From contig NZ_GL883828.1 of NCBI RefSeq assembly GCF_000205165.1, positions 1 through 54,417 of the forward strand: a DNA stretch of 54,417 nucleotides, in the 5' to 3' direction. The stretch is from Paraprevotella xylaniphila YIT 11841 (lineage in GTDB: Bacteria; Bacteroidota; Bacteroidia; Bacteroidales; Bacteroidaceae). The position numbers and the translations under genes are program-made. Of this stretch, positions 177 to 14,066 are shown one piece after another. The notes beneath the pieces were generated by a model, which worked only from the letters and a program-made list of their open reading frames with translations, made no database searches and had not been told where the DNA came from. Position 1 is the first letter of the stretch; each line of letters begins with the position of its first letter.

Positions 177-1586
177 CTATTCAGACACCACATCCGGCCG
201 GATTTGCGAATAGTGTATGTTGTCCAACATCAGATTGATGACATTACGGCTTCGGTTGGATGCCCCCTTCGCTTTATCAACATAGACATCCCTAACAAAT
301 ATATCTTTAGGCTTCAACCGTTTATCACCAGAAAATTCATAGACATAATCAGCAGAGCCACATTTTATGCCCCTTACGTGAATGCCTTTTATGGAAGTGA
401 GGCGCTCTTCATAAGTAGGCACCAAATCCCTCCATTGGTACATGACATCCATATCCAACCCCACAAGGTAGCCTGTCTTATTACAGGTTATATCTTCCAA
501 ATGAATGTTTTCAACAAAACCTCCTCTTCGGCAATTGGTTTTAATGAAGAATAAACACCGTACAGAGCCAAGCACATCACAATGATGCATAAAGATGTTA
601 CGTATCCCTCCCGACAGTTCACTGCCTATTCCCAACAATGTATGTCCGGCCAGAATCTTACAATTCCTGATAACGATATTTTCACTGGGCGTATCCAACC
701 TCCACGCGTCCCGGTTCCGTCCCGACTTGATGACTACCGCATCATCCCCTTGGTCAAACGTACAGTTCTCAATCAGGAAATCACGGCTCATTTCCAAATC
801 TATTCCGTCATTGTTATGCCCATTAGCCTTTACATCAAGCCGACGCACAATACCTCCTTTGCACATATAAAGATGAATGGTCCAAAAAGGGCTCTCCCTG
901 ATGCTGAAGTCTTCAAGAAGCACATTCCGACAACGATTCAAATGTATCAGATGGGGACGGAGGTTATTCTCCCCTTCAGCCATTTGCCGTTTTTCCACCG
1001 CAATATCAGTGGATGCCATCTCATACAGTTTTTTCAATGCATCCATGTGGGCTTGAGGCCGGGCAAACCACTTTTTCCATGTCTCCATTCGCGGAGCCAA
1101 GGTCCCGCTGCCCGTAATGGCTATATTTTCACAATCATAGGCATAAACCAACGGAGAATAATTATAACACTCCATACCCTCCCATGAAGTCATGACAGCC
1201 GGAAGGTAATCTAAAGGAGTGTCCGTAAAACTCAGCACCGCCCCCTTCTCCAAATGCAGGTTCACATTGCTTTTCAAATGGACAGGCCCGGTCAACCATT
1301 CTCCTGCAGGAACGACCACACGTCCTCCACCAGCCCGATGACAAGCATCCACAGCCCGTGCTATAGCTTTTGTATTCAATACCTTTCCCCCTTCTTTTGC
1401 CCCATACCGGGTTATCGGGAAATCTTTTTGGGGAAATACGCATAAGTACACAGAATCCATAGGAAACGGCGCTTCCACTTCCACTTTCTGATGCTTTACG
1501 CCACCAACCCCTGCATACAACGGAAAAAACGACACGAGATATGCAGCTATAAACAAAATTCTCAAAATCATGGCCATATTATTCAA
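177..1586 (-). CDS. GH28 family glycoside hydrolase (polygalacturonase-like)
   Basis: A 469-residue exported right-handed beta-helix enzyme. Residues 1-25 form a signal peptide. The GH28 catalytic signature is present in order: NNDGID at about 258-263 (family NTD), the Asp pair in QGDDAVVIKSGRN at 281-282, and a GHTLLGIGSE segment near 314 (family GHG). FIKTN at 347-350 corresponds to the conserved RIK region. Known members cleave alpha-1,4-galacturonan or rhamnogalacturonan in pectin in the periplasm or at the surface. The gene lies 26 bp after the glycosidase at 1613-3220 and ends 52 bp before the partial exported gene at the edge, so it sits late in the exb-like operon. Substrate specificity (polygalacturonan, xylogalacturonan or rhamnogalacturonan) cannot be read from sequence. 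Translation could also start at the internal Met4 or Met6. Confidence 0.9.
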   Translation of the reverse strand: MNNMAMILRILFIAAYLVSFFPLYAGVGGVKHQKVEVEAPFPMDSVYLCVFPQKDFPITRYGAKEGGKVLNTKAIARAVDACHRAGGGRVVVPAGEWLTGPVHLKSNVNLHLEKGAVLSFTDTPLDYLPAVMTSWEGMECYNYSPLVYAYDCENIAITGSGTLAPRMETWKKWFARPQAHMDALKKLYEMASTDIAVEKRQMAEGENNLRPHLIHLNRCRNVLLEDFSIRESPFWTIHLYMCKGGIVRRLDVKANGHNNDGIDLEMSRDFLIENCTFDQGDDAVVIKSGRNRDAWRLDTPSENIVIRNCKILAGHTLLGIGSELSGGIRNIFMHHCDVLGSVRCLFFIKTNCRRGGFVENIHLEDITCNKTGYLVGLDMDVMYQWRDLVPTYEERLTSIKGIHVRGIKCGSADYVYEFSGDKRLKPKDIFVRDVYVDKAKGASNRSRNVINLMLDNIHYSQIRPDVVSE

Positions 1587-1612: not shown

Positions 1613-3220
1613 CTACCATGAAACCCTTAGTTCCTGTAATCGGGCCGCTTGTGCCCTTACTTCTCCGTCCACAAGGACAAAAAAGCCCTTGCCCCGTCCA
1701 TACCGTTTGCCCGTACGGTCGTAAAACACAGTCAAGACACGCCCTTGGTAACTCACGCCGTCAAGACAAAACCACTCCCAAGCTTGTGCCGGCACAAGAG
1801 GATGGACGACCACATTATCACCGGTTTGCGGACGGATACCGACCAGTCCGGAAATCAACAAATCGCAATACGTCGAATGGTTATAGTCTTTTCCTCTTTC
1901 CACACCTCCTTTTTCCGCAGACCATCCGCCATCCTTCCAAGAGGCCAGTCTCGTACGGGAAATCCAATCACCCGTATAAGGATTCTGGTTTTCGTCTATC
2001 CACGGTATGATACGGCCGTCCTCGCAAACCCTCCTTTGAGAACGGCTATATTTCAGGAACTGGTCAAAATAATCCTTCTCGGAAACGACATCCTGGCTAT
2101 AATTGTTCAACACATTTGCCAATGCCGTCAACGTGACAGAAGTGGCAAAAGGCCAAACCGGTCCGTTCCATTGGCACTCGTGCCCTTCGTAAGACAACCT
2201 GAAACGGGGATGCGACTGTTCTGCCGTAGTCAACCCGTAAGGGGCATTGAAACCACTGTCTGACTTCATGAACTTCCACGCCTCTTCAAACCCCTTCCCT
2301 TTTTCAGGAAGATTCATGTACCAAGGCGTATATCCTTGAAGTTCGCGCACATCCACAAACGTCCCCTTCCTTTCCGAACGAGTCTTGAAAAAACAGCCCT
2401 CTTCATCCCACAAACTGTCCTCGACCAACTTTCTGAGATGCCCGGCTTTCTCGTTATATGCCTTAGCCATATTCCCGTCGCCTAAACATCCGGCCATCTC
2501 AGCCAATGCTTTAGCCTCCCCATACATGTAAGCATTGATAGAAGGGCGTTTTCCGCTTCCGCCTATTTGCATCTCCATCCCATCCCGGTCATCATAAGTA
2601 CTAAACAAGCCATCCGGATTCCGGCCTATAAAATGTCCGCCATTGTTCCACCCCCTTTCCCAAGCCGCGTAATTCTTCACCAGTTCCGGAAACAAATCCA
2701 AGACTACATTTTGACGGCGCAATTTATAATACTCCCACAGTGCATTGGAAACCCAAAAGCTATACATTCTCGGATTCCCTTCCGAAAACCAGAAACGGGC
2801 ATAAGCATTCACGTACCCGGTGTCCCTCAACCAACGGCCTTCATAAATATGATGCGCCGCCGCACAGGCAATCGAGTTATATTTTCCGGACCAATACACT
2901 TTCGGAAGGAACTCTGTAAAAATGAATCCATGGGGTATCTTCTTGATATGTTTCCTAAAAGTCCACCAACGAAAATAGTATGTCGTCATCACCTCCTTGT
3001 CCGGACAATCAAAAAAGGGAATGTTTTCTTGGAGAAAAGCCCAAGACGAATCGTTAGGAACATGCTGAACATACAATTCATTGTCTTCCTGGTTAAAACG
3101 ATCTATATAACACTTGTAGTCAGAAGGACGCAAGACATAAAAATCCCTATCCCCGGCATGGGCATAAAGAAGCCCCACGATGACAGCACTTGCCACTGCC
3201 ATAAACCTTTTTTTCTTCAT
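1613..3220 (-). CDS. Secreted (alpha/alpha)6-barrel glycosidase, MGH1/GH63-like
   Basis: About 535 residues, starting at ATG 3220-3218 (MKKKRF). The longer open frame upstream of this lacks a plausible leader, while MKKKRF gives a clean signal peptide ending near AHAGD. The body is rich in aromatic helices: RWLRDTGYVNAY, NPDGLFSTYDDRDGME, WNGPVWPFATSV and YNHSTYCDLLISGLVG. This pattern is typical of the six-hairpin glycosidases related to GH63 and mannosylglycerate hydrolase (MGH1-like domain). Asp and Glu residues in these stretches are the likely catalytic candidates. The gene lies 35 bp after the TonB-like protein and 26 bp before GH28, so the three are probably co-transcribed. The family assignment is by motif feel and the substrate is unknown. 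Proximity to GH28 suggests a pectin-derived oligosaccharide. Confidence 0.7.
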   Translation of the reverse strand: MKKKRFMAVASAVIVGLLYAHAGDRDFYVLRPSDYKCYIDRFNQEDNELYVQHVPNDSSWAFLQENIPFFDCPDKEVMTTYYFRWWTFRKHIKKIPHGFIFTEFLPKVYWSGKYNSIACAAAHHIYEGRWLRDTGYVNAYARFWFSEGNPRMYSFWVSNALWEYYKLRRQNVVLDLFPELVKNYAAWERGWNNGGHFIGRNPDGLFSTYDDRDGMEMQIGGSGKRPSINAYMYGEAKALAEMAGCLGDGNMAKAYNEKAGHLRKLVEDSLWDEEGCFFKTRSERKGTFVDVRELQGYTPWYMNLPEKGKGFEEAWKFMKSDSGFNAPYGLTTAEQSHPRFRLSYEGHECQWNGPVWPFATSVTLTALANVLNNYSQDVVSEKDYFDQFLKYSRSQRRVCEDGRIIPWIDENQNPYTGDWISRTRLASWKDGGWSAEKGGVERGKDYNHSTYCDLLISGLVGIRPQTGDNVVVHPLVPAQAWEWFCLDGVSYQGRVLTVFYDRTGKRYGRGKGFFVLVDGEVRAQAARLQELRVSW

Positions 3221-3255: not shown

Positions 3256-4842
3256 TCAGTCCGTAGCCACGGCATAGTCCTGAGGAATAATCAGGAAACT
3301 GAAGCCGGCAGCTCCTCCACCCCCGTTCTCCAAGCGGAGCAGGATGCGGTTCCACCCTTGGCGGAACGTGAAAGGTTCGATATGCTCGTCTATATGGTAC
3401 CAACTCGTACCCTTGTCCTGCCAGACGTCTTTCCCGTTAATCCACACCCGGCCGCTATCGTCCGTCCCGATGGCCACAAGCATGGTCGTAGCCTCATCGA
3501 AATACAATTCGGTATAGGCATAATAAGTGGAATGCCCCGTCGTGACAGGCACGGTATTGTGCATGGACTCGCTCTGCATGAATTTCCAACGCAAAGTCCC
3601 GTCCAACTGGACTTTCTCGCCTATCATCTTGACCGGGTGTGAATCGGTTTCTTCCGTTCCGACACCGACCTGCCCGTCCGTATAGACGGCATCAAAATCC
3701 ACTGCGATTTCAGGTTGGTGGACAATGGCAAAATCATCACGACCGTAATTTTCCCATGGCCCTATCATATACCACGTGTTCACATACAGCCATCCCTTAC
3801 GTTCCGCGTCTTTTGAAAAACGTCTGCCGGGCAAAGCTTGGGCTTTGACCATCATCTCATTCAAACGCGGACCACGATACTCGCTATAAGGTGTCTTTAC
3901 TTCATCATTGGCATAGTTCACTCCGCCTAAGCCTCCGTCTCCCCATCCTCCGCCGGGACTTCCGAATCCACCGGGCTGGCCTTGTCCGTTCCCAAGTCCA
4001 CCGCCGGGCTTACCGATGTTTCGCGGAACGCCGAAAAGGTTCTCCAGACGCGAACCTGCCAAGCCAACCTGCCGCGAAGCCTGTCCCAACAGCCCCCGGT
4101 AATTGTTCAGGTCTGCCGTGCTCCTCACGGACAACCCCGCACTGGCATTACTGCCCGCAGAACGTTTCCACTCCATTCCTCCGGTCTGCATCCGTATCAG
4201 TTTCTCAAAATCCGGCATGCGGGTTGCACTTTGTTGCATGGAACTGTATACTTCCGGAAAAGACAATCCCTTCTGCAACGTCTGCTTGGCCGCATTCACT
4301 GCCAAGTGGTTTTGTTGGATTTCCCGTTCATACTGCCGTAACATTTCATAGAGTTCCTGCACCGACGGCCGGTTGCCCAACGGAGGTTCGCCGGCCTGCA
4401 AGATGGCACGGGCCATGGAAACGTCGTTGGCATCCCTTGGAGCCGACGGCGGAAGCTTACGAGACTCCACTTGAGACAGCAACCGGTTCTTTTGGTTCCT
4501 CATCTTTTCCGCCATTTTTTGAAAATGCGACAACTGTGTTTTCAAATTCTTCTTCACGGATATTTCCGACTGCTCCACCAGTTCCTTCGCATACTGGGAA
4601 GGTAAAGCCCGATGTGCCTGCTCCATCTTCATTTTCTCGTTCAATTTGGCCGGTCTCGCCGCACGAGGTTTCAGTGCACCGTGATGTTTCTCCACCGCAT
4701 GTCCCTCCGGCAATTTCATCGTACCTTGCGTGGAAGATGGAGGGGCAGACAGGATGCCCCATGCCAATGCCGCACAGGCCACAAGCGCTATTCCCCAAGC
4801 CACGACGGTGACCTTCCAATCAGTTTTCGTTGTAGTGTTCAT
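3256..4842 (-). CDS. TonB-topology protein with coiled coil and C-terminal beta-sandwich
   Basis: A 528-residue protein with no family I can name. Seen in the sequence: a short cytoplasmic N-terminus and one transmembrane helix at about 11-31 (N-in, as in TonB), then a Pro/Lys/Arg-rich stretch. A long charged helical region at about 65-220 is likely coiled coil. A Gly/Pro-rich linker lies near 283-310. The C-terminal domain (about 340-528) has WYMIGPWENYG, GTDDSGRVWINGKDVW and FRQGWNRILLRLENGGGGAAGF, the strand signature of PA14 or galactose-binding-like jelly rolls. There is no TonB C-terminal domain. Its start overlaps the upstream exbD stop by 23 bp, which implies translational coupling. 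Inference: it takes the transducer place in an ExbBD motor and reaches across the periplasm to a glycan or an envelope partner. Confidence 0.75.
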   Translation of the reverse strand: MNTTTKTDWKVTVVAWGIALVACAALAWGILSAPPSSTQGTMKLPEGHAVEKHHGALKPRAARPAKLNEKMKMEQAHRALPSQYAKELVEQSEISVKKNLKTQLSHFQKMAEKMRNQKNRLLSQVESRKLPPSAPRDANDVSMARAILQAGEPPLGNRPSVQELYEMLRQYEREIQQNHLAVNAAKQTLQKGLSFPEVYSSMQQSATRMPDFEKLIRMQTGGMEWKRSAGSNASAGLSVRSTADLNNYRGLLGQASRQVGLAGSRLENLFGVPRNIGKPGGGLGNGQGQPGGFGSPGGGWGDGGLGGVNYANDEVKTPYSEYRGPRLNEMMVKAQALPGRRFSKDAERKGWLYVNTWYMIGPWENYGRDDFAIVHQPEIAVDFDAVYTDGQVGVGTEETDSHPVKMIGEKVQLDGTLRWKFMQSESMHNTVPVTTGHSTYYAYTELYFDEATTMLVAIGTDDSGRVWINGKDVWQDKGTSWYHIDEHIEPFTFRQGWNRILLRLENGGGGAAGFSFLIIPQDYAVATD

Positions 4843-5245
4843 CGTATGTTCGTATACCTATATTCGTTAAATTATAAAACTGGCAGGCATCCATCACCTC
4901 CACAAAACGTCCGAAAGGCGTATTCTTGTCCATGTCAATGCGTATCCGGCGGTCCGGAGTGGCAATACAGACATCCCGCAACTGCTCATGCAGGAAATTG
5001 GCCGTGCAAGGTTGGCCGTCCCAGTAAAAGTTACCTTCACTGTCCAACCCCACAATCGCCTGTTTGTCATCGGGCTTCAGCTTCACTGCAGCCTGCGATG
5101 CCGGCAAGTCCACCGGAATATCCCTGTTCTTGACCTTGGTCATAGTAGACACCAAGAAAAAGATAAGCAGCAGGAACACACAGTCTATCAATGGAGACAT
5201 GGAGACTTCTGGCTCCTCTTCGTTATTTCCCAAAGGTAGTTTCAT
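4820..5245 (-). CDS. ExbD/TolR-family protein (second copy)
   Basis: 141 residues. A short cytoplasmic N-terminus leads into one transmembrane helix, MSPLIDCVFLLLIFFLVSTM at about 16-35. This carries the conserved membrane Asp (Asp21) that ExbD, TolR and MotB use for proton-driven motion. The rest is a periplasmic domain of the ExbD/TolR type, which in known members binds the transducer or peptidoglycan. Its start overlaps the stop of the first exbD by 23 bp and its stop overlaps the start of the TonB-topology gene by 23 bp, so the proteins are likely made in fixed ratio. Two ExbD copies in tandem are common in Bacteroidetes, where they may form a heterodimer inside the ExbB pentamer. Confidence 0.93.
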   Translation of the reverse strand: MKLPLGNNEEEPEVSMSPLIDCVFLLLIFFLVSTMTKVKNRDIPVDLPASQAAVKLKPDDKQAIVGLDSEGNFYWDGQPCTANFLHEQLRDVCIATPDRRIRIDMDKNTPFGRFVEVMDACQFYNLTNIGIRTYDEHYNEN

Positions 5246-5693
5246 AAGGCTTTCCTCCTAAACGGACCCGCGTATGCGTGAATCCTTCCAACTGACATTG
5301 ATCGAAAATCTCTATTACCGTATTGACCGGAACCGACCGGTAAGCCGCCACCTCTATGGCCACATCCGTCCCCACCTTCTCACGCAAAGTATTCAGATAG
5401 GCATTCAAATCCCCGATGGGCAGATAATCGTTCTCCCCGGTATAGGCGTCATGGTTCGCCACCTCATAGACCTGCTTGTCCTCGTCCACGGCTATAATCA
5501 CGGTATTTTCACCCGAACGGGTCGTAGACAAACTGGAAGTCATCGCAGGCAACGACAGCGGTATCTGCATCTCCCATTTCTTCATCATGGTCGTGACCAA
5601 GAAAAAAATCAGCAACAGGAACACGCAGTCTATCAAAGGCGACATCTGGATGTCCACCTTTTCGTCTTCATCCAAAGGCAGTCTCATGCTCAC
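5223..5693 (-). CDS. ExbD/TolR-family protein (first copy)
   Basis: 156 residues with the same plan as its neighbour: an acidic N-terminus, a transmembrane helix containing MSPLIDCVFLLLIFFLVTTM at about 17-36 with Asp22 as the presumed proton-carrying residue, and a periplasmic domain. The helix is almost identical to that of the second copy while the periplasmic domains differ strongly, consistent with an old duplication followed by specialisation. Its start overlaps the exbB-like stop by 4 bp (ATGA), another sign of coupling. Role by family: stator partner of the ExbB channel in the inner membrane. Confidence 0.93.
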   Translation of the reverse strand: MSMRLPLDEDEKVDIQMSPLIDCVFLLLIFFLVTTMMKKWEMQIPLSLPAMTSSLSTTRSGENTVIIAVDEDKQVYEVANHDAYTGENDYLPIGDLNAYLNTLREKVGTDVAIEVAAYRSVPVNTVIEIFDQCQLEGFTHTRVRLGGKPYETTFGK

Positions 5694-7027
5694 ACGGTTT
5701 TCTTATTCAAATAAATCGTATTCACCACTTGTTCCACGCCCGTCTCGATTTGTGCCCCCAAATTGGATATCCGGCTTTTGAGGATGAAATATACGGCAAT
5801 GGAGGGCATGGCCACTATCAAACCGGCAGCTGTCGTAATCAACGCCTTGGAAATGGAGTCGGACAAGATGGAGGCTCCCCCCTCGTCACCGAAGAAAGCC
5901 ACAAGACCGAACGCCTCGATCATGCCCACAATCGTGCCGAACAACCCTAAAAGGGGAGACAGGGAAGAAATGACGGAAAGAGGATAAATGCGTGACAAAT
6001 GGCCACGGATGTCACGGGCCGCCATGTCACCGGCCGTCTGGCACACCGCCTCCCAGTCTGCATCACGATGCTCTACTATAAAGCCAAGGGCATTACCTAA
6101 AGTGGAAGGCTTCTTCCGGCAAAGGGCTACAGCTGCGTCGTAATCTTGCTTCTCGATGCATGCACAAACCTTCTCGGCCAGGCCTTTCGGTGCCAAACGC
6201 CCGCGAGTGGAAGTAAAGAAACGCTGAATCGTAATGACCAATGCCAAAATGCCCAATAAGTAAAGAGGATACATGATGAAACCTCCGGCCTTGATCTGGG
6301 CCACCCAGTCAATTTGCACCTTCTGCTCCGCCTCTTCATCCGTTTCAACGGGCACATCCTCCAAAGCCACAGAATCCATTACTGCGTCGTCTATCTCCTC
6401 TACAGCCGCCACCTTGCCCGGCAGAATCTTGGGAGCCACATCCGCAAAATCGTCCTGGGTAGCCCCTAAAATGATGTTGTCGAAACCGGCATCCCGACGG
6501 GTCGGACAAAGGAAGGATATATCGGTCAGTGTAAAATCGCCAAAGTCCTTCCATAAGTCCCGGGTCACAACCGTCCAACCACCGGTCACTTTGTCGTCCA
6601 CCTTCAGGCCCGACAAGTCTTTTCCCGGACCGGCCATATAAGTATAATTGTATTTCTTCCCCGGCGCACGTCCTTTCGCGTTTTTCGCGCCCAATTTCAG
6701 TCCGATTTCCTCCCCGCCCCATTTAATCCAAGAAAACGTGATATAACGGTATTGTCCCGGACCGGGATTCTCGCGGATAGGAATGGACAGTCCGCTAATC
6801 CGTGTAGGAGTTTCGGAGGGCTGCACATAAATATAATGCGTACTCCCTTCCCGGCATCCTCCTTCCCGGACAGCTTTGGGTTCGGAAACCTGCGCCCCTG
6901 TCGGCACTTTGTCCTTGAACACCTCATAACGCCCTTTTGCCCCGGCATGGGATGCCCCTAAAAAACAAGAGAGCAACAAAGCCCACACCACCGAACACTT
7001 TCTCTTCTTCTGCAATAAATTTCCCAT
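5690..7027 (-). CDS. ExbB/TolQ-family proton channel with exported N-terminal domain
   Basis: 445 residues, about twice the usual ExbB length. Residues 1-30 look like a signal peptide. Residues 31-190 look like a periplasmic beta-sandwich, with phrases such as GWTVVTRDLWKDFGDF and GFDNIILG that I know from carbohydrate-binding-type modules. An acidic linker (about 205-240) follows. The channel part has helices at about 248-270, 349-370 and 395-417. SPLLGLFGTIVGMIEAF at 357-373 and the ITTAAGLIVAMPSIAVY stretch at 397-413 are the MotA/TolQ/ExbB signature. First gene of the unit, behind a TATCTTTG box at 7067-7074. The fusion could let the motor sense or hold a periplasmic ligand, but this is inference. 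Confidence 0.9.
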   Translation of the reverse strand: MGNLLQKKRKCSVVWALLLSCFLGASHAGAKGRYEVFKDKVPTGAQVSEPKAVREGGCREGSTHYIYVQPSETPTRISGLSIPIRENPGPGQYRYITFSWIKWGGEEIGLKLGAKNAKGRAPGKKYNYTYMAGPGKDLSGLKVDDKVTGGWTVVTRDLWKDFGDFTLTDISFLCPTRRDAGFDNIILGATQDDFADVAPKILPGKVAAVEEIDDAVMDSVALEDVPVETDEEAEQKVQIDWVAQIKAGGFIMYPLYLLGILALVITIQRFFTSTRGRLAPKGLAEKVCACIEKQDYDAAVALCRKKPSTLGNALGFIVEHRDADWEAVCQTAGDMAARDIRGHLSRIYPLSVISSLSPLLGLFGTIVGMIEAFGLVAFFGDEGGASILSDSISKALITTAAGLIVAMPSIAVYFILKSRISNLGAQIETGVEQVVNTIYLNKKTV

Positions 7028-7074: not shown

Positions 7075-7284
7075 CCGAACACCGCCCTAAAACCGTTCCA
7101 TTTTTCATTCAATTATATGGCATAAATGTGGAAATCACACTTGATGCCGAAATTGATTCACTTTTGCCCATTTTCGTTCAGACAGGCATACCCGGTAAAA
7201 ACCGCTGCAAGACTCCCTGCTCCATGCCGCCCCCGTCAGCTTCTCCGTCGGCCCCACACCTCCAAAAAGTTTTCCAAAACATGT

Positions 7285-7604
7285 TTCATCTTTCAGGAAT
7301 CCCAATAAAACATTTGTAATTAACCGTTTAAGCCCTGAAAGATGAATAGGCGATGTTTCAGGCTGAAAAGCCCCACCCCTACAGGGAGGTTGGAAAAGCC
7401 CTTCTTCAGGACATCTTTTTTTCTGCGCCAAACGATTTTTCATTCTCCTGAGACTGATTTTCCGTTCTGCGCCAAACGATTTCACCACTTACGGCAGGAC
7501 GGATACATGCCACAACCTGACAAAAAGCTGAAAGATGGAATTATATCCTTCAGTCGCCAAACACGTTGGAATACAAACACTTGAAATCCATCCTGAAAGA
7601 TGAA
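7285..7604. repeat. Cluster of CCTGAAAGATGAA motifs
   Basis: Copies lie at 7285-7297 (reverse orientation), 7334-7346, 7528-7540 (CTGAAAGATGGAA) and 7592-7604. The first two form a perfect 13-bp inverted repeat separated by 36 bp. A half-copy, TTTCAGGCTGAAA, sits at 7356-7368. The cluster lies between the lipoprotein stop and the exb promoter. It could be an operator set or a decayed repetitive element. Confidence 0.6.
7423..7488. repeat. Three-unit 22-bp tandem repeat array (copy A)
   Basis: Units occupy 7423-7444, 7445-7466 and 7467-7488. Units 1 and 3 begin CTGCGCCAAACGATTT, while the middle unit begins CTCCTGAGACTGATTTT and is diverged. The same three-unit, 22-bp layout, again with a diverged middle unit starting CTC, occurs at 32280-32345. 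The period of about two helical turns would put equal bases on one DNA face. Confidence 0.8.
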
Positions 7605-8398: not shown

Positions 8399-10111
8399 TT
8401 ATTGGTCACGCCATTGTTCTTCCATCATATAAGATGACAAGAAGCAATGCCCGTCCAACTCGTCCCCCACAGCATCAGCACCGCACAGCCAATAAATAAC
8501 CTGAGGTGCAATCAAGATGTTTTCCATCGCCAAATCTCCTGAAGACCTCTTTCCCGGTAAAGTATTGGCCATTTTCACAAAAACAGGTTTTTCCCTAAAT
8601 ACCATGTCTGGCATACCTTTCACTTTATTGGGTATAATTGAATCCGATTTCAACTCATCCGGTGAAAAGTGCCACTCCCCTATCAAGTGTCCACGCTGAG
8701 CCGCCCCTTCCGGTAACACCCAATAGTCCATATACTCATTGATATCCTCATCCTTCAAGAAAGTATCCCATAAACGTACAGAACCAGCATAGAAATTTAT
8801 GCCTGTATGCCCGACTTCCAAAGCCGTAGAATCATCTTCTACTCCCATATTTTGTGTTTCATCATATAACATCCTTTGCCCGTCATAAGACATAATATAC
8901 ATCCGTCCCCCCGAAGACAACGGCCCCAAGCCGGTATAAAAAGAATGCCACCTCGCATCATTAAAAGCATTGATTTCTTTCTCCAAAGCATTGCCTCCAC
9001 TGATATATATTTTCACTTTCTCCCTTTGACGGAACAGCCCCCACTTGCCTTTCCCCACAAAACGGTCCCAATTGTTTCCATGATAGGATTGCTTATCAGT
9101 AGGAATATTCCTCATATTGATTTCTACGGCAAGTTCCCGGTTAGGCCCTATTCCATATAAGGCCGTAGAGTCCTCTACTGCCGCCCAATTCTCTTTCGAG
9201 AAATATGCAGCCCACACAACCTCCCCTTTCATCTCGTACGAAGTATAATGAGGATAATAGAATATGCCGAAAATATCCCGTTCCGGATCTGTGTTGCCGC
9301 CGTAGCGACCGTCAGGCGTCCCCCCGTGGTTCGATGTCACGCACACCAACCAGTCTTCATAATAAGCATCTTCGCGAGCCTCAATCGTGGCCAACAATCG
9401 TCCCAAACCCGTATCTACCAACTTCAAGGCATTCAGGTATGATGCATTTTCAGCCACGAATCCTCCTGATTTTCCAGCCTCCAACACTCCTTTAAAGGCA
9501 GCCAATATCAACTGGTTATCTCCCTTTTCAAGTTGCCCCTGCAACACCTCCAACGTTTCTTCATCCGAAGAACTGGTTATCACGGATTGCATCCCACCGA
9601 CATAACGGTTTAAGTTGGGCCAAGGAGAAACGCACGACATCAATAAGTTCGGATCCTTATCCGAAACATACTGCACGATGGTCTTGGCATAAGTAACCGC
9701 CGCATCCCCTATCATGAAATCAGGAGTATAAGAATAATCCTTGATACGATGCATACGGGAATTCATCCCTGTGAGCATAGTGGCCCAAGTCAAAGGATCT
9801 TCCTCATCATACGACTCACGCCCTTCCGGCAGCAAGGCGTGGTCATCGGCGACCCCCGTCCAAACATACTTGCTATGCCCAAGCATCTTCTGCATGACCA
9901 GGAGGGTTCCTTTCTCCACCTCCTGCTTCACCACAGAACCCACAGCCCCGTCTATGTTGAGCCAAAGCACGTAACGTTTCACACTTTTTTTGGATGCCGC
10001 CGTGTCTTCTATCCCTCCGGCAATCGACTCAGGTGTATCATACTTCGTGCACGAAGCGTACAGCCCACATAGCAACACCAATACGTATTTGAATCGGTTC
10101 ATTATATCCAT
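8399..10111 (-). CDS. DUF4983-type surface lipoprotein (copy a)
   Basis: 570 residues and the last gene of the SusCD operon. The lipobox Cys is in GLYASC (about 21); Met4 is an alternative start. The N-terminal half resembles the alkaline-phosphatase/phosphodiesterase fold: VLWLNIDGAVGS near 48, a WATMLTGM helix, and DWLVCVTSNHGG near 255, which matches the SDHG metal site of that fold but with Asn replacing Asp. The C-terminal half looks like a LamG/concanavalin sandwich followed by a short tail. From memory this architecture matches Pfam DUF4983 proteins found beside SusD genes. It is a paralogue of the gene at 12258-14066. A role in glycan capture is likely and catalysis is uncertain because the metal ligands look incomplete. 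Confidence 0.75.
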   Translation of the reverse strand: MDIMNRFKYVLVLLCGLYASCTKYDTPESIAGGIEDTAASKKSVKRYVLWLNIDGAVGSVVKQEVEKGTLLVMQKMLGHSKYVWTGVADDHALLPEGRESYDEEDPLTWATMLTGMNSRMHRIKDYSYTPDFMIGDAAVTYAKTIVQYVSDKDPNLLMSCVSPWPNLNRYVGGMQSVITSSSDEETLEVLQGQLEKGDNQLILAAFKGVLEAGKSGGFVAENASYLNALKLVDTGLGRLLATIEAREDAYYEDWLVCVTSNHGGTPDGRYGGNTDPERDIFGIFYYPHYTSYEMKGEVVWAAYFSKENWAAVEDSTALYGIGPNRELAVEINMRNIPTDKQSYHGNNWDRFVGKGKWGLFRQREKVKIYISGGNALEKEINAFNDARWHSFYTGLGPLSSGGRMYIMSYDGQRMLYDETQNMGVEDDSTALEVGHTGINFYAGSVRLWDTFLKDEDINEYMDYWVLPEGAAQRGHLIGEWHFSPDELKSDSIIPNKVKGMPDMVFREKPVFVKMANTLPGKRSSGDLAMENILIAPQVIYWLCGADAVGDELDGHCFLSSYMMEEQWRDQ

Positions 10112-10124
10112 ATTTCAATTTGTT

Positions 10125-12245
10125 TTATCGTTTATAAAAAAATGTCCCAAACTCCGAAAACATTTGTTGCCTGTCCTTATGGAAGTTTTCAAAATTCTCT
10201 TCATCGCCTTCATTCGGTACGAACAAATTGGGCTTGTCGAATACCAAACGCAGGTAACGTGCCGTGACAGGCTGCGGGAAATCTATGAACTGCTCGTTTT
10301 TCAACAAACCGTCCACGGTCTGTTCCAAAACATACAGGTTGCTCCATTCCTGTTCGTCATGCTGTTCCAAACCGAAGCCTGAAGCATCAGTCGTCTGCAA
10401 CGTAAATCCGGAAATACAGCGTGCGTCCCCATTCGCATAATAAAAACCATCCATCGTCTGCTCCTTTCCCATGTCGATGACCACATAATATGGAAGTTCG
10501 CTCGGAGAATCCTGATGCCCTCCGTTATTGGGAGAAAGGTAAGAACTCCAGTAAGAGTAGGGATCACCATCCAGAAGATTGTCCGCAGTCTTCCAATCCG
10601 ACTCAGATTTATACTCCTTGTCCTCGTTTTCACGCCCTTCGCTGTCCCAAGCCGCAATCTTCCATGCGCTGCGGTTGGCACGGTAACGGAAAGACGAGGT
10701 TTCATATTGCCCCACATCCTCAAACGGATCCTCCGCCAACGGGTTTATTTTCCAGATTTGCTTGTCCAATAGAGGATAGCGTGAAGCATATTCACGCTCC
10801 GATCCGGAAACAGACATGCCCCAATGTTCATAGAAAGGAGTAAAATCCACCTGATAACGGTCGCAAAGTTCCCTGAAGAAACCCTCATAGTCGTTTCCGG
10901 CTCTTCTATCATGGCTTAATTTATCATAGATGTCCCATTTCGGTTTATCCTGATAATGGTTTTCATATTCGGCAATTTGGACACGCGGTAAAAGATATAG
11001 GGACTTTTTTCGGTTCGCCTCTTCTTTAGCCGTATACAAATCCGATGACATCCACTTGGAAGTATCCGCCTCTGCATAGGACAAAGCAACCGGAACTGTA
11101 GACTTAAAATCTATCCCCATGTCTGACAATTCTTGTTCCAAACCAATCTCCTTGTTCCTCTCATTCATCCGATACAGAGGCACATAAAAATATTCATCCT
11201 CCCATCCCGTCACTCCATTATAAAAATAACTATACTTTTCCGCCACCATGGAATACACATTGATAAAATGCAAATCAGCCACAGAGTCAATATTCAACAG
11301 GTCATCATAAAGACTGGCCGTACGTACCAACATCATCCCCTGTTCGTTATCGGAACGCCTCGATTTGTTTTCCCGCAATTGGACATCAAAGACAAAACGG
11401 TTGGGAAACATGGGTTGCGGATTTGCCGCATCGGATTCTTTGTCAAAGCCTTGGGTACGATAAATCGTCTCCAACATTTCATCCCACGTAGCCAAACATG
11501 CCTCCATTTCCATCGCAAAATCAGGACGTTGGGAGAAATACAAGTCCAACTGGCTTCGCTCTACGGAGAACGCCACGTTTTTTCCCCTCAATTCCAACCA
11601 AGGGACTGTCGTAGCTTTCACTTTCCGTTCCCACTCACGCACGTCGGTTTTCCCCAAGACAAAATCCGGAGCCGCATACACATTGCAGAATGTCAACGGG
11701 ACATCAGCATCCCCTTCTACATCCTGATCGCGCAACACCCAAAGATAACCTCCCAACGAGAAGCGTACGGTATTCTTTCCGGGATACAACGCTTTCCGAT
11801 AATAGGCAATAGGTTCACGCAAGCCGATATTGTCATTCGTCAAGTCTTCCGTGTGCATACCCACTTGGACGGTCAGTCCCCAAACATTATCCGGCACATA
11901 AACCGTCACCAATTCCCCTGCACCCGCATACAACCCACTGCTATAAATGGATTGTGGGCCTTCTTGCATAATCCCCAACTGGATATATTTACGGGATAAA
12001 TCCAAATAAACCACAGTATCTGCGATACGACGTTCTGAAGCCGTGTCCACCAATCCCGGAAACAAACGGGCTTTCTCGTACATGCTCACATCGATGCCCT
12101 GTACCGTATCCACTGTCACACGGGAGGAATCCGCCGCATTATCATCCCACCCGCTATCAAACTCGAAGTCACTGGCTTCACACCCTGAGAACAAAAAAGA
12201 CATCCCCAAGAAAGCCACTAATATATAGTTCACTAAATATCTCAT
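10125..12245 (-). CDS. M60-like lipoprotein with C-terminal F5/8C domain, HExxH missing
   Basis: 706 residues. Lipobox FLFSGC gives a lipid-anchored Cys at about 22. Residues 95-170 (YAGAGELVTVYVPDN and GKNTVRFSLGGYLWVL) resemble the N-terminal sandwich of M60/enhancin-like proteins. The phrases PNRFVFDVQL and FTPFYEHWGMSVS correspond to regions flanking the M60 catalytic core. No HExxH motif occurs anywhere, so proteolysis by the usual zinc site is not expected. Residues from about 535 form an F5/8 type C (discoidin) domain: LLDGDPYSYWSS, YYVVIDMGKEQTMDGF and ARYLRLVFDKP. The gene lies between the two DUF4983 genes with 12-13 bp gaps. Likely a glycan- or mucin-binding surface protein derived from a peptidase. 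Confidence 0.72.
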   Translation of the reverse strand: MRYLVNYILVAFLGMSFLFSGCEASDFEFDSGWDDNAADSSRVTVDTVQGIDVSMYEKARLFPGLVDTASERRIADTVVYLDLSRKYIQLGIMQEGPQSIYSSGLYAGAGELVTVYVPDNVWGLTVQVGMHTEDLTNDNIGLREPIAYYRKALYPGKNTVRFSLGGYLWVLRDQDVEGDADVPLTFCNVYAAPDFVLGKTDVREWERKVKATTVPWLELRGKNVAFSVERSQLDLYFSQRPDFAMEMEACLATWDEMLETIYRTQGFDKESDAANPQPMFPNRFVFDVQLRENKSRRSDNEQGMMLVRTASLYDDLLNIDSVADLHFINVYSMVAEKYSYFYNGVTGWEDEYFYVPLYRMNERNKEIGLEQELSDMGIDFKSTVPVALSYAEADTSKWMSSDLYTAKEEANRKKSLYLLPRVQIAEYENHYQDKPKWDIYDKLSHDRRAGNDYEGFFRELCDRYQVDFTPFYEHWGMSVSGSEREYASRYPLLDKQIWKINPLAEDPFEDVGQYETSSFRYRANRSAWKIAAWDSEGRENEDKEYKSESDWKTADNLLDGDPYSYWSSYLSPNNGGHQDSPSELPYYVVIDMGKEQTMDGFYYANGDARCISGFTLQTTDASGFGLEQHDEQEWSNLYVLEQTVDGLLKNEQFIDFPQPVTARYLRLVFDKPNLFVPNEGDEENFENFHKDRQQMFSEFGTFFYKR

Positions 12246-12257
12246 ATTCCTTATGCT

Positions 12258-14066
12258 TTAATCATTCGTTGTTAAATCCTTATAGGGAAGCGTACGCCCT
12301 ATCCCCGTCCATCCCCATGCATCAGGCACGGTAAATCCCAACCATTGGAAAGTTTGGAACGGTATATCGACCAGATTAATGGACGTTTGGAAATAGGTCT
12401 TGCTATAAGGCGGTTTGACATTGGTCTCTTCCGACATGCCCTGTTGCCACAAAACATTGGAAGAAAGTGTCATATCCGATTTCCCTGCATTCGGTCCACC
12501 ATAAATGGAACCATATTGGGAATAGTCAGGCAACACCTCCCCTTCATAATCCTCTTCCCGGTCGCAAGGCCAGTAACCAATCAAATTATCCCAATAAGGA
12601 TAATCTTTTCCCAGTTCATCCAATCCCGACAGTTTATAATTCTCAGCTATGAAATCAGCCGGCAATGCCACATCGTAGACTTGCACATTGGTCACATAAA
12701 TCTGTACTGTCGTGGAAGTATTTGAACGGAATATCTGCCCAATGGTAAGGGGAACTTTGTCTCCTGTAGAAACATCCACGGTCAAAGGTTCAAACTCTGC
12801 ATTCCCATGAAGATCCAAATGCCCGTCCGTATATTGACGGAACTGTTGTTTCTTATAATCAAAAACTACCGTCAATACATGCCATTTTTTATCGTTCAAC
12901 ACCGAAGCCTGGTCTTGAATCGTCCAAATCCGTTTTCCATCGAACCTGGACAAAAGCCTGAAATATTCCGCTCCGGTTTCCCAACCTTCCCCTCCCCGGG
13001 GTTCTGTTTGGATGGCCTTAGACACAAAATCCAACCAGTTCTCTCCTCCATTGGGATAGCAGACCATGAATTGGACGGTATAAGATGTGGTGTCTTCCCC
13101 CTCTGCCGGCAATTTGAAATCGAACAAAGACGGGTCATTGACTTTGGCATAATCGGTAGCCCCCGTTCCGGAATAGGCCGGAGTGAAATACTTATATACC
13201 AATCCCTCATCCGAAGAAGGAGCCAAAATGCGCTCTTCACCGAAACGTTCATTATACATCAAGGTAAATGTGTTGCGGTCTTTCATCTCATACACACTTT
13301 CGCCCGTATTGTCCGTGGCACCTCCATAATTGGACGTTACTACCACCAACCAATCCTCGGCAGCATAATCCGGACGTGCTTGCAAAGCCGCCATGACCCG
13401 TCCTATACGTTGATCCGTTTCGGAAAGAGCGACTATGACTTCATCCGTAGGCCACCCGGCACGCTCGCCTTCAGGAACAATGAAACCGGCTTCCAATCCT
13501 GCCTGCTGCACTCCATTGTATTCTATAATGGTCAATGAGGGTACCTCGCCCGTAGCCGACAATATTGCCTCAGCATCTTCCGTGATTTGCTCATCCGTAC
13601 CCCAACAAATCATATCGGCCTCATCCTTGCATAAGTCGGAAAACTCACGTTCAGATGCCAATACCGCAATACGGCTTTCACCGTCAAGTCCTTTAAGGCG
13701 TTCCAAAACCGAAGGCGTATCGGAAGAGCGCTCCAACATTCCTGTCAGCAGATTATCCCATCCCAGACGACTTCCGACCAACGTATCGGAACGGGTATCA
13801 GCCAAACCGTCAAACGTATACAACGCCTTTTCCATCATGCCTTTCAGCGTCATCACCTTTCTGTCATTATTTGCCTCCCTTACGGCCGTACCGCTCGCCC
13901 CGTCCACCACAATCCAAAGCACATGTTTCTTATGGTAAGCGAAATCCTCATTCGGATAATCCGTCCGCAAACCATCCACCAAGTCATCGTTACAGGCACA
14001 TAACGTAGCACCCATGCCACAAAAGACAGCCAATTTCCAAATGGTTCTTATCAAAATGTTTCTCAT
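12258..14066 (-). CDS. DUF4983-type surface lipoprotein (copy b)
   Basis: 602 residues. Signal peptide with lipobox GATLCAC, Cys at about 25. Domain order matches copy a: a phosphatase-like core (HVLWIVVDGASGTAV near 48, DNLLTGML, DWLVVVTSNYGGATDNTG near 240) and a C-terminal LamG-like sandwich (KKWHVLTVVFDYKKQQFRQY, TVQIYVTNVQVYDVALPADF), then a YWDNLIGYWPCD segment. The metal-site phrase is TSNYGG, so both the Asp and His of SDHG are replaced and it is probably not an active phosphodiesterase. It starts 17 bp after the DUF5008-type gene stop. The strong divergence between copies a and b argues for an old duplication with distinct binding roles. Confidence 0.75.
   Translation of the reverse strand: MRNILIRTIWKLAVFCGMGATLCACNDDLVDGLRTDYPNEDFAYHKKHVLWIVVDGASGTAVREANNDRKVMTLKGMMEKALYTFDGLADTRSDTLVGSRLGWDNLLTGMLERSSDTPSVLERLKGLDGESRIAVLASEREFSDLCKDEADMICWGTDEQITEDAEAILSATGEVPSLTIIEYNGVQQAGLEAGFIVPEGERAGWPTDEVIVALSETDQRIGRVMAALQARPDYAAEDWLVVVTSNYGGATDNTGESVYEMKDRNTFTLMYNERFGEERILAPSSDEGLVYKYFTPAYSGTGATDYAKVNDPSLFDFKLPAEGEDTTSYTVQFMVCYPNGGENWLDFVSKAIQTEPRGGEGWETGAEYFRLLSRFDGKRIWTIQDQASVLNDKKWHVLTVVFDYKKQQFRQYTDGHLDLHGNAEFEPLTVDVSTGDKVPLTIGQIFRSNTSTTVQIYVTNVQVYDVALPADFIAENYKLSGLDELGKDYPYWDNLIGYWPCDREEDYEGEVLPDYSQYGSIYGGPNAGKSDMTLSSNVLWQQGMSEETNVKPPYSKTYFQTSINLVDIPFQTFQWLGFTVPDAWGWTGIGRTLPYKDLTTND

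Follow-up and report, generated by a model that had tools for sequence, protein, structure and literature searches.

Results

Gene Layout of the Cassette

The window, i.e., the whole 54,417-nucleotide stretch of Paraprevotella xylaniphila YIT 11841 DNA that we analyzed, carries on its minus strand at 3256-7027 the genes for an ExbB, two ExbDs (ExbD1 and ExbD2), and a fourth protein that we call X, which are then followed by two glycosidase genes.

5690..7027, minus: ExbB, 445 aa, ExbB/TolQ-type channel subunit with a signal/anchor and a large periplasmic N-terminal domain (PF01618, E 6.7e-20, above cut-off)
6458..6931, minus: CBM-like periplasmic beta domain of ExbB (residues ~33-190; model, block pLDDT 59-87)
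5223..5693, minus: ExbD1 (PF02472, E 6.9e-20; listed with a GTG start; the conserved start is the ATG at 5687)
4820..5245, minus: ExbD2 (PF02472, E 1e-34; 23-bp overlaps with both neighbors)
3256..4842, minus: X, candidate non-TonB transducer, 528 aa (10 aligned relatives, 51-81% identity)
4750..4818, minus: transmembrane anchor of X (residues 9-31; helix H9-31 in model and sequence; no His)
4036..4650, minus: helical stalk of X (residues 65-269; model, block pLDDT 52-89)
3871..4020, minus: glycine-rich linker of X (residues ~275-324; sequence; block pLDDT mostly 25-37)
3280..3825, minus: PA14/CBM35-like C-terminal domain of X (residues 340-521; Foldseek on a low-confidence model)
1613..3220, minus: MGH1-like glycoside hydrolase (PF22422, E 1.8e-67; likely ATG start at 3220, 35 nt after X)
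177..1586, minus: GH28 (polygalacturonase family) glycosidase (PF00295, E 2.2e-20)

A preliminary description of this DNA had proposed an ExbB-ExbD-ExbD set with a fourth gene and two glycosidase genes behind it, and all of these open reading frames are indeed in place, with motor domains above their curated cut-offs (71.6 bits against 22.9 for MotA_ExbB, 119.8 and 71.8 bits against 25.4 for the two ExbDs). The overlaps of 4, 23, and 23 bp that it listed stood in part. The two 23-bp overlaps, between ExbD1 and ExbD2 and between ExbD2 and X, were confirmed and are also present in Paraprevotella clara (L003), whereas the 4-bp overlap between ExbB and ExbD1 hinges on the GTG start of ExbD1; the P. 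clara gene starts at the ATG equivalent to 5687 here, which leaves a 2-nt gap to ExbB instead. An HMM scan found ExbB, two ExbDs, and X together in 12 of 14 related loci, the two exceptions being a locus cut by its contig (L004) and a short fragment (L016). Since the genes co-occur this often, the set is not a chance arrangement, and a four-gene motor is well supported.

Conserved Channel Residues in the Motor Subunits

When the ExbB model was searched with Foldseek, TolQ/ExbB structures were returned, and Thr365, Thr398, and Thr399 are invariant across 11 aligned ExbBs. Among the relatives, the Thr of the GxxGT motif is kept in 49/51 ExbBs (exceptions L115 and L127) and the second Thr pattern in 38/51; of the 13 ExbBs outside this pattern, at least 6 still have Thr-Thr in a variant of it. 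The conserved Asp noticed earlier in each window ExbD is present in both, and every one of the 84 ExbDs from the relatives has it (a motif search located it in 80, and it was read by eye in the other 4). These channel residues suggest that the four-gene motor is driven by protons. The window pair consists of one ExbD1-type and one ExbD2-type protein, a pairing seen in 31 of 33 two-ExbD loci; outside it fall L131, in which both are ExbD1-type, and L087, at a contig start. A Ser in ExbB TM1 is found in 18/19 single-ExbD and 7/32 two-ExbD loci, a contrast that is weak because Bacteroidota housekeeping control ExbBs (L001, L025, and L044) also lack this Ser.

The periplasmic part of ExbB is predicted to be CBM-like. 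Foldseek with the ExbB model matched CBM11 (6r31, E 3.1e-4) and glucuronyl C5-epimerases, matches whose assignment to the N-terminal domain is ours. MotA_ExbB was the sole Pfam family in ExbB in a Pfam scan, with no match to DUF2341 or DUF3450.

Domain Content and Fold of X

The fourth protein had been described as TonB-like in its N-in topology and as devoid of a TonB domain. Both points hold, the first on the strength of sequence and model: X consists of an N-in anchor, a helical stalk (H65-76, H82-126, H161-191, H195-202, H212-220, and H242-269 in the model), a glycine-rich linker, and a weakly modeled PA14/CBM35-like C-terminal domain. No Pfam or NCBIfam family scored above cut-off in the window X, which also gave no Pfam match to GldM domains and no PADLOC match. 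TonB_C and TolA matched neither it nor any of 36 X proteins scanned, and no vWA Pfam match was found in these 36 proteins or in 34 C-domains. Judged by its domain matches, X is neither TonB nor TolA.

The C-domain was modeled poorly (block pLDDT 26-61). Foldseek nonetheless aligned it, with low TM-scores, to GH3 beta-glucosidase 3ac0 (E 1.3e-4), GH66-type and GH31 enzymes, CBM35 2w3j (E 5.4e-4), and PA14 6m8m (E 1.5e-3). PA14 is the Pfam family that the C-domains match most often: with E values up to 1 admitted, 7 of 34 relatives have such a match (best E 0.0043), the window domain itself having none. We regard X as a candidate transducer in which a predicted sugar-binding-like C-terminal domain stands in place of the TonB tip. 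Two further leads were discarded: PDB sequence matches to X profiles were short, repeat-driven, or weak and were judged to be chance, and a defense system was indicated in PADLOC only by ZorA matching ExbB at E 0.08, with no Zorya match for the ExbDs or X.

The Anchor Motif and Split X Genes

The anchor of the window X has no Ser-x3-His of the SHLS motif. Ser/Ala-x3-His is found in 17 of 18 evaluable single-ExbD relatives: in 11/12 with a fused X (10 with Ser, L127 with Ala, and L130 without the motif; L112 was not evaluable and was left out) and in 6/6 with a split X. Among two-ExbD relatives, Ser-x3-His occurs once in 36 (0/33 and 1/3 more), and this single case (L169) weakens the rule that two ExbDs always mean no His; in two others, L012 and L131, a His sits at the edge of the transmembrane segment, outside the motif. 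Fisher tests of these contrasts leave relatedness out of account. The His, kept in most single-ExbD relatives and absent from nearly all two-ExbD ones, offers a natural comparison for arm-motor coupling. The split genes belong to one lineage of six loci, where X is divided into a TonB-like anchor-plus-coil gene bearing the Ser-x3-His and a neighboring C-domain gene. Their presence as separate neighbors is a Rosetta-stone sign that the halves of X function together.

Glycan Genes Around the Cassette

The polysaccharide-locus setting proposed earlier was borne out, the cassette lying among glycan genes. Its window neighbors are glycosidases, phosphodiesterase-like genes, and M60 genes, with no tol-pal neighborhood, and a two-SusCD locus, which includes a hybrid two-component regulator, is also in the window. 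The MGH1-like gene is, from its position, probably cotranscribed with the cassette. In B. finegoldii (L010), GH88, DUF2264, and GH28 lie immediately downstream, the GH28 being 63% identical to that of the window, and GH43 is immediately downstream in a Dysgonamonadaceae MAG (L012) and in Sphingobacterium (L013). A codirectional glycosidase right after X was seen in the window and these three loci only; glycan genes are on the opposite strand in L003 and L009, an outer-membrane barrel gene is found in L005, and hybrid regulators adjoin L012 and L014. Glycan loci abound in the genomes of gut Bacteroidota, so this nearness is partly to be expected. Among the Verrucomicrobiota and Planctomycetota loci listed, for which few neighbors were scanned, no common glycan neighbor was evident. 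Fold and gene context together suggest that the cassette has a role with glycans.

Distribution of the Cassette and of the X Domain

The cassette was found in 1/395 Bacteroidota genomes and 5/399 genomes of the family, counts that both include the window's own genome, a rarity that speaks against a housekeeping motor. The same description had pointed to Planctomycetes and Verrucomicrobia, where the X-domain does recur beside ExbB/ExbD genes: in 31/31 proteins of the Verrucomicrobiota sample (one of these lies at the start of its contig and has ExbD alone beside it) and in 10/22 proteins of Planctomycetota. The other 12 Planctomycetota proteins are away from motor genes (seven of these are short proteins, and one lies at the end of its contig), as are 2 of 6 matches with fetched surroundings from a further search (E 1e-6). 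The chance of an X-domain falling within 6 kb of MotA_ExbB would be of the order of 1-2%, by single-genome arithmetic on G796 (7 matches, 6.1 Mb). The C-domain of X marks a motor family that is larger than the cassette and recurs in Verrucomicrobiota and Planctomycetota.

Six loci from small genomes with the order ExbD1-X-ExbB-ExbD2 (L095-L099 and L109) had been guessed to be Akkermansia, a guess that was dropped because none of the six has an M60 peptidase match. Genome G821 does have an M60 protein, matching PDB 7sci_A, an entry that we take to be from A. muciniphila, over 486 residues with 1129.6 bits. It has no X-domain match at E 1e-6, nor, at the same threshold, do G818, G824, G827, G830, and G860, each with 3-4 M60 matches. 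The two-ExbD locus of G821 (L166) lacks X and includes a TPR gene of 1101 aa; by its position, L166 may be Akkermansia mucin utilization locus 1 (MUL1). MUL1 was rejected as the same system.

Discussion

The cassette resembles TonB-ExbBD and TolA-TolQR in its ExbB and ExbDs with channel residues, in its N-in arm with a single transmembrane segment, and in the Ser/Ala-x3-His of most single-ExbD relatives of X. It differs in that X has no TonB_C or TolA domain, the two ExbDs are unlike, ExbB has a CBM-like domain, and the four-gene set includes no tolB/pal or tonB.

The nearest published kind is the vWA force transducers, which adjoin TolQ-like and paired TolR-like genes and are reported in PVC bacteria and Bacteroidetes (PMC12204202). 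They have in common with the window a pair of unlike TolR/ExbD genes. The window differs in that X ends not in vWA but in a domain whose low-confidence model is PA14/CBM35-like, and in that the anchor of its X has no SHLS His; the shared cassette, moreover, includes no TPR gene. An extra N-terminal part on the channel subunit is shared with the long ExbB of Serratia, which has a periplasmic extension (PMC9008036), and with A subunits carrying extra domains, e.g., DUF2341 or DUF3450 (PMC12505986), but the part present here is a ~160-residue CBM11-like domain, matching neither DUF, in an operon with X. MUL1 is tied to glycan accumulation (PMC13174399), and Amuc_0546 has been called a "biopolymer" transporter (PMC11480725). 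If L166 is MUL1, ExbB and two unlike ExbDs would occur there too in a locus tied to glycan accumulation, although with the TPR gene and without X.

On the best reading of these findings, X represents a transducer class of its own that is new, whereas its motor is of a type already known, and pectin-type glycans are what the system is used with here. With confidence evenly divided, we propose a dedicated PMF motor of the ExbBD/TolQR kind with X as its arm, here most likely serving pectin-type glycan use. Five ExbBs would form the channel and the ExbD1-ExbD2 pair its axle, and force would pass into the periplasm along X as the moving arm, from the helical stalk through the flexible linker to the PA14/CBM-like domain. 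X might in this way bind and move a glycan or a glycan-linked envelope partner.

A Tol-like motor that maintains the envelope, with X pulling at peptidoglycan, at LPS, or at an outer-membrane lipoprotein and with the glycosidase neighborhood being incidental, seems to us unlikely. The motor family is shared with TolQR, sugars or proteins of the envelope are among the ligands that PA14/CBM-like folds can bind, and no common glycan gene was evident among the few neighbors scanned in the Verrucomicrobiota and Planctomycetota loci listed; yet the cassette is rare and patchy in Bacteroidota, unlike a housekeeping system, and several of these bacteria have glycosidases and hybrid regulators next to it. 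Less probable still is a role like that of GldLM in type IX secretion, with the motor supplying the energy for glycosidases or lipoproteins to be exported or assembled at the surface. The codirectional glycosidases would fit, and GldLM and AglRQS are described as related-type motors for surface processes (PMC9389320), ones that have special partners and are of the ExbB/MotA type or 5:2 in makeup, with two MotB-like subunits in AglRQS; however, the shared four-gene set contains no secretion component and X does not match GldM. That ligand binding by X and ExbB alters the motor state and signals to a regulator, making the cassette a glycan sensor, would suit its two CBM/PA14-like periplasmic domains and the hybrid two-component regulators near some cassettes, but appears very improbable, since X, ExbB, and the ExbDs match no cytoplasmic signaling domain and the regulators own sensor repeats. 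We give hardly any weight to X simply taking the place of TonB for the SusC transporters encoded here, despite the SusC/SusD pairs in the window and the Ser-x3-His-like anchor of single-ExbD relatives, because TonB_C is missing from all 36 X proteins scanned and the arm of X is helical and glycine-rich, unlike that of TonB, which is proline-rich.

Starting from the preferred reading of X as the arm of a dedicated motor, a bolder version can be put forward tentatively: X would be a new TonB-independent class of PMF transducer with a PA14/CBM-like tip. It would have its home in Verrucomicrobiota and Planctomycetota, from which gut Bacteroidota would have acquired it, and would power the capture or uptake of large glycans across the envelope; ExbD1 and ExbD2 would form a heterodimeric axle, and the contact of X with the motor would no longer depend on the His of TonB and TolA. 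Periplasmic uptake of large polysaccharides is reported for Verrucomicrobiota (PMC13174399). Of the arms that ExbBD-type motors use, only a few are understood so far, and this motor may power the handling of glycans across the envelope in a way not yet described. A conserved arm tipped by a sugar-binding-like domain would make the powering of large-polysaccharide uptake directly testable.

A two-ExbD cassette in Paraprevotella and its distribution

The cassette consists of four genes, the last encoding X, a 528-aa candidate transducer:

5690-7027, minus strand, ExbB
5223-5693, minus strand, ExbD1
4820-5245, minus strand, ExbD2
3256-4842, minus strand, X

A preliminary description had claimed overlaps of 4, 23 and 23 bp. 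Both 23-bp overlaps are real in the window ORFs, while the 4-bp overlap exists only with a GTG start, and the gene in the Paraprevotella clara locus (L003) begins at the ATG equivalent to 5687. Upstream of ExbB, short direct repeats are visible by eye at 7135-7488, which may be non-coding repeat DNA; an open frame there is 78% identical to its counterpart ahead of the P. clara cassette. The window's genome has two MotA_ExbB matches, one in the cassette and another elsewhere (L001), with ExbD-like frames adjoining the latter by eye.

The cassette is real, conserved and rare in Bacteroidota. A scan of genome contigs gave 14 related loci, 12 of which carry ExbB, two ExbDs and X by HMM scan; the other two are cut by the contig (L004) or a short fragment (L016). 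With profile A1, the cassette was found in 1/395 Bacteroidota genomes and in 5/399 genomes of the window's family, the window's own being counted in both. A search in Planctomycetes and Verrucomicrobia, as had been proposed, also gave matches: 20/288 Verrucomicrobiota genomes (the phylum of genome G796) and 11/199 Planctomycetota genomes (that of G797) match at 1e-10, though often the match covers only the C-domain of X. The C-domain profile A4 matched 17/87 genomes of the family of G796 at 1e-6.

Anatomy of ExbB and X

In the ExbB model, a signal/anchor precedes a beta domain at residues ~33-190, with block pLDDT of 59-87, and the channel part follows. Foldseek matched it to TolQ/ExbB and also to CBM11 (6r31, E 3.1e-4) and glucuronyl C5-epimerases; we read the latter two as belonging to the N-domain, the aligned ranges not being printed. 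The X model has a single N-terminal helix, continues through a helical stalk and a glycine-rich linker, and ends in a weakly modelled C-terminal domain (block pLDDT 26-61). The top Foldseek match of X is the GH3 beta-glucosidase 3ac0 (E 1.3e-4), an enzyme with a PA14 domain. After it come further glycoside hydrolases, CBM35 domains and PA14 lectins; TM-scores are low throughout. PA14 is the commonest Pfam match among X relatives (7/34, best E 0.0043), the window's own C-domain having none. Pfam gave no TonB_C or vWA match in the window X or the scanned relatives, which bears out the original remark that the fourth protein has no TonB domain.

The X C-domain is tied to these motors strongly, but not exclusively

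This follows from counts in three sets. We scanned the surroundings of the Verrucomicrobiota and Planctomycetota 1e-10 matches with cassette-built profiles, as far as the contigs reach. The 34 Verrucomicrobiota match rows represent 31 proteins in 20 genomes: 17 lie with ExbB and two ExbDs, 13 with ExbB and one ExbD, and one, at a contig start (L087), with ExbD only. The 24 Planctomycetota rows represent 22 proteins in 11 genomes, with two ExbDs in four cases, one in six and none in 12; these 12 comprise six short pieces in genome G1228, a short frame (L106), one reaching a contig end (L105) and four further unlinked proteins (L133, L134, L136 and L137). Among six A4 matches with surroundings fetched, four have ExbB and two ExbDs beside them, and the other two (L172 and L174) are unlinked.

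Several loci depart from the window's layout. L172:7781-9910 is a 709-aa C-domain-like frame with an N-terminal hydrophobic segment, and the 15 kb fetched hold no ExbB/ExbD match. The pieces in G1228 (L104:123-434 and L122-L126) are scattered and about 86-246 aa long; this genome, in the G797 phylum sample, also has one whole cassette, in L104. For the 179-aa Pirellulales frame at L106:7603-8142 (the same as L016:7707-8246), the matched parts are the opening TM1 region of the ExbB channel profile and the final part of the X C-domain. No ExbD turned up in its vicinity, and the frame is a degenerate or very reduced fusion. In the G796 phylum sample, G900, G897 and G906 each have, besides a cassette of the window type, another in the order ExbD1-X(about 950 aa)-ExbB-ExbD2 (L087/L095, L088/L109 and L089/L096, respectively), and L091:9748-10578 is a 276-aa frame of no Pfam family between ExbD2 and X. 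In the Akkermansia muciniphila-like G821, L166:1298-8626 has ExbB and two ExbDs that differ in type, with a TPR protein of 1101 aa and another protein of 347 aa close by and X absent; the locus may be MUL1.

The anchor motif varies with ExbD number

According to PMC12215075, Ser-x3-His (SHLS) is common to TonB and TolA anchors and touches ExbB/TolQ TM1. Ser/Ala-x3-His occurs in 11/12 evaluable fused X proteins of single-ExbD loci (ten Ser, and Ala in L127; L130 lacks it and L112 was not evaluable) and in 6/6 split ones. The motif is absent from the window X and from the first set of two-ExbD X (0/33); among those added, L169 has it, L170 and L171 lack it, and L092 and L173 could not be evaluated. 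The totals are thus 17/18 single-ExbD and 1/36 two-ExbD relatives, a comparison whose Fisher values ignore relatedness. Where there is one ExbD, it belongs to the ExbD2 type (19/19 loci); where there are two, each type is represented once in 31/33 loci. Since 32/33 two-ExbD rows fall in one clade of the C-domain tree (support 100/99; L169-L173 not in the tree), the motif may have changed on one occasion or on a few.

Split X was found in six loci, all single-ExbD (L113, L114, L116, L118, L119 and L120). By eye, the gene preceding the C-domain protein encodes a Ser-x3-His anchor and a long, probably coiled stretch, and the C-domain protein itself starts with a signal-like sequence. Because these separate neighboring genes match both halves of X, they are a Rosetta-stone sign of joint function.

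Genomic context and origin

The locus upstream of the cassette combines two SusC/SusD pairs and GH43 genes with a hybrid two-component regulator, fasciclin-like proteins and an M60-type peptidase. At 8399-14066, the M60-type peptidase, which also bears an F5/8 type C domain, sits between two proteins with weak phosphodiesterase/sulfatase matches, one also with a LamG-like match, a gene mix unusual for a pectin-type locus. Directly after X on the same strand come an MGH1-like glycoside hydrolase and GH28 in the window, GH88, DUF2264 and GH28 in Bacteroides finegoldii (L010), and GH43 in a Dysgonamonadaceae MAG (L012) and Sphingobacterium (L013). Glycan genes downstream are on the opposite strand in L003 (GH43) and L009 (GH88 with DUF2264), L005 has an outer-membrane barrel gene downstream of X, and hybrid regulators adjoin the L012 and L014 cassettes. 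As such genomes are rich in glycan loci, this glycosidase nearness is partly to be expected.

The C-domain tree places the window in a 15-row clade (starred) together with Bacteroidota, the Akkermansiaceae MAG L015, G897, G900 and G906. This clade lies inside a larger two-ExbD clade that also holds rows from the G796 and G797 phyla, which suggests that Bacteroidota received the cassette from Verrucomicrobiota. G897, G900 and G906 nest among Bacteroidota, at forks with bootstrap of only about 80-87, which suggests that it was later transferred back.

A putative glycan-directed motor

Among the systems known, the vWA transducers (PMC12204202) come closest; X differs from them in having no vWA match in Pfam. 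For one verrucomicrobium, PMC13274419 designates TolQ/ExbB and TolR/ExbD genes as a TonB-dependent system. We recognized no description of the cassette among the matches listed, as titles and abstract openings, in open-licence literature without preprints, a scope that makes this absence no proof of novelty. X would be a transducer class for which we found no description, on a motor type already known.

By homology, the channel and the ExbD pair would form a 5:2-type motor. The CBM-like domains of ExbB would surround this motor. X would dock on it by a contact not using the TonB/TolA His, and motion would pass along the stalk and through the linker to the PA14-like tip, where a glycan or a glycan-linked partner may be bound. 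Our confidence is strong that the cassette is a motor and moderate for its putative glycan role.
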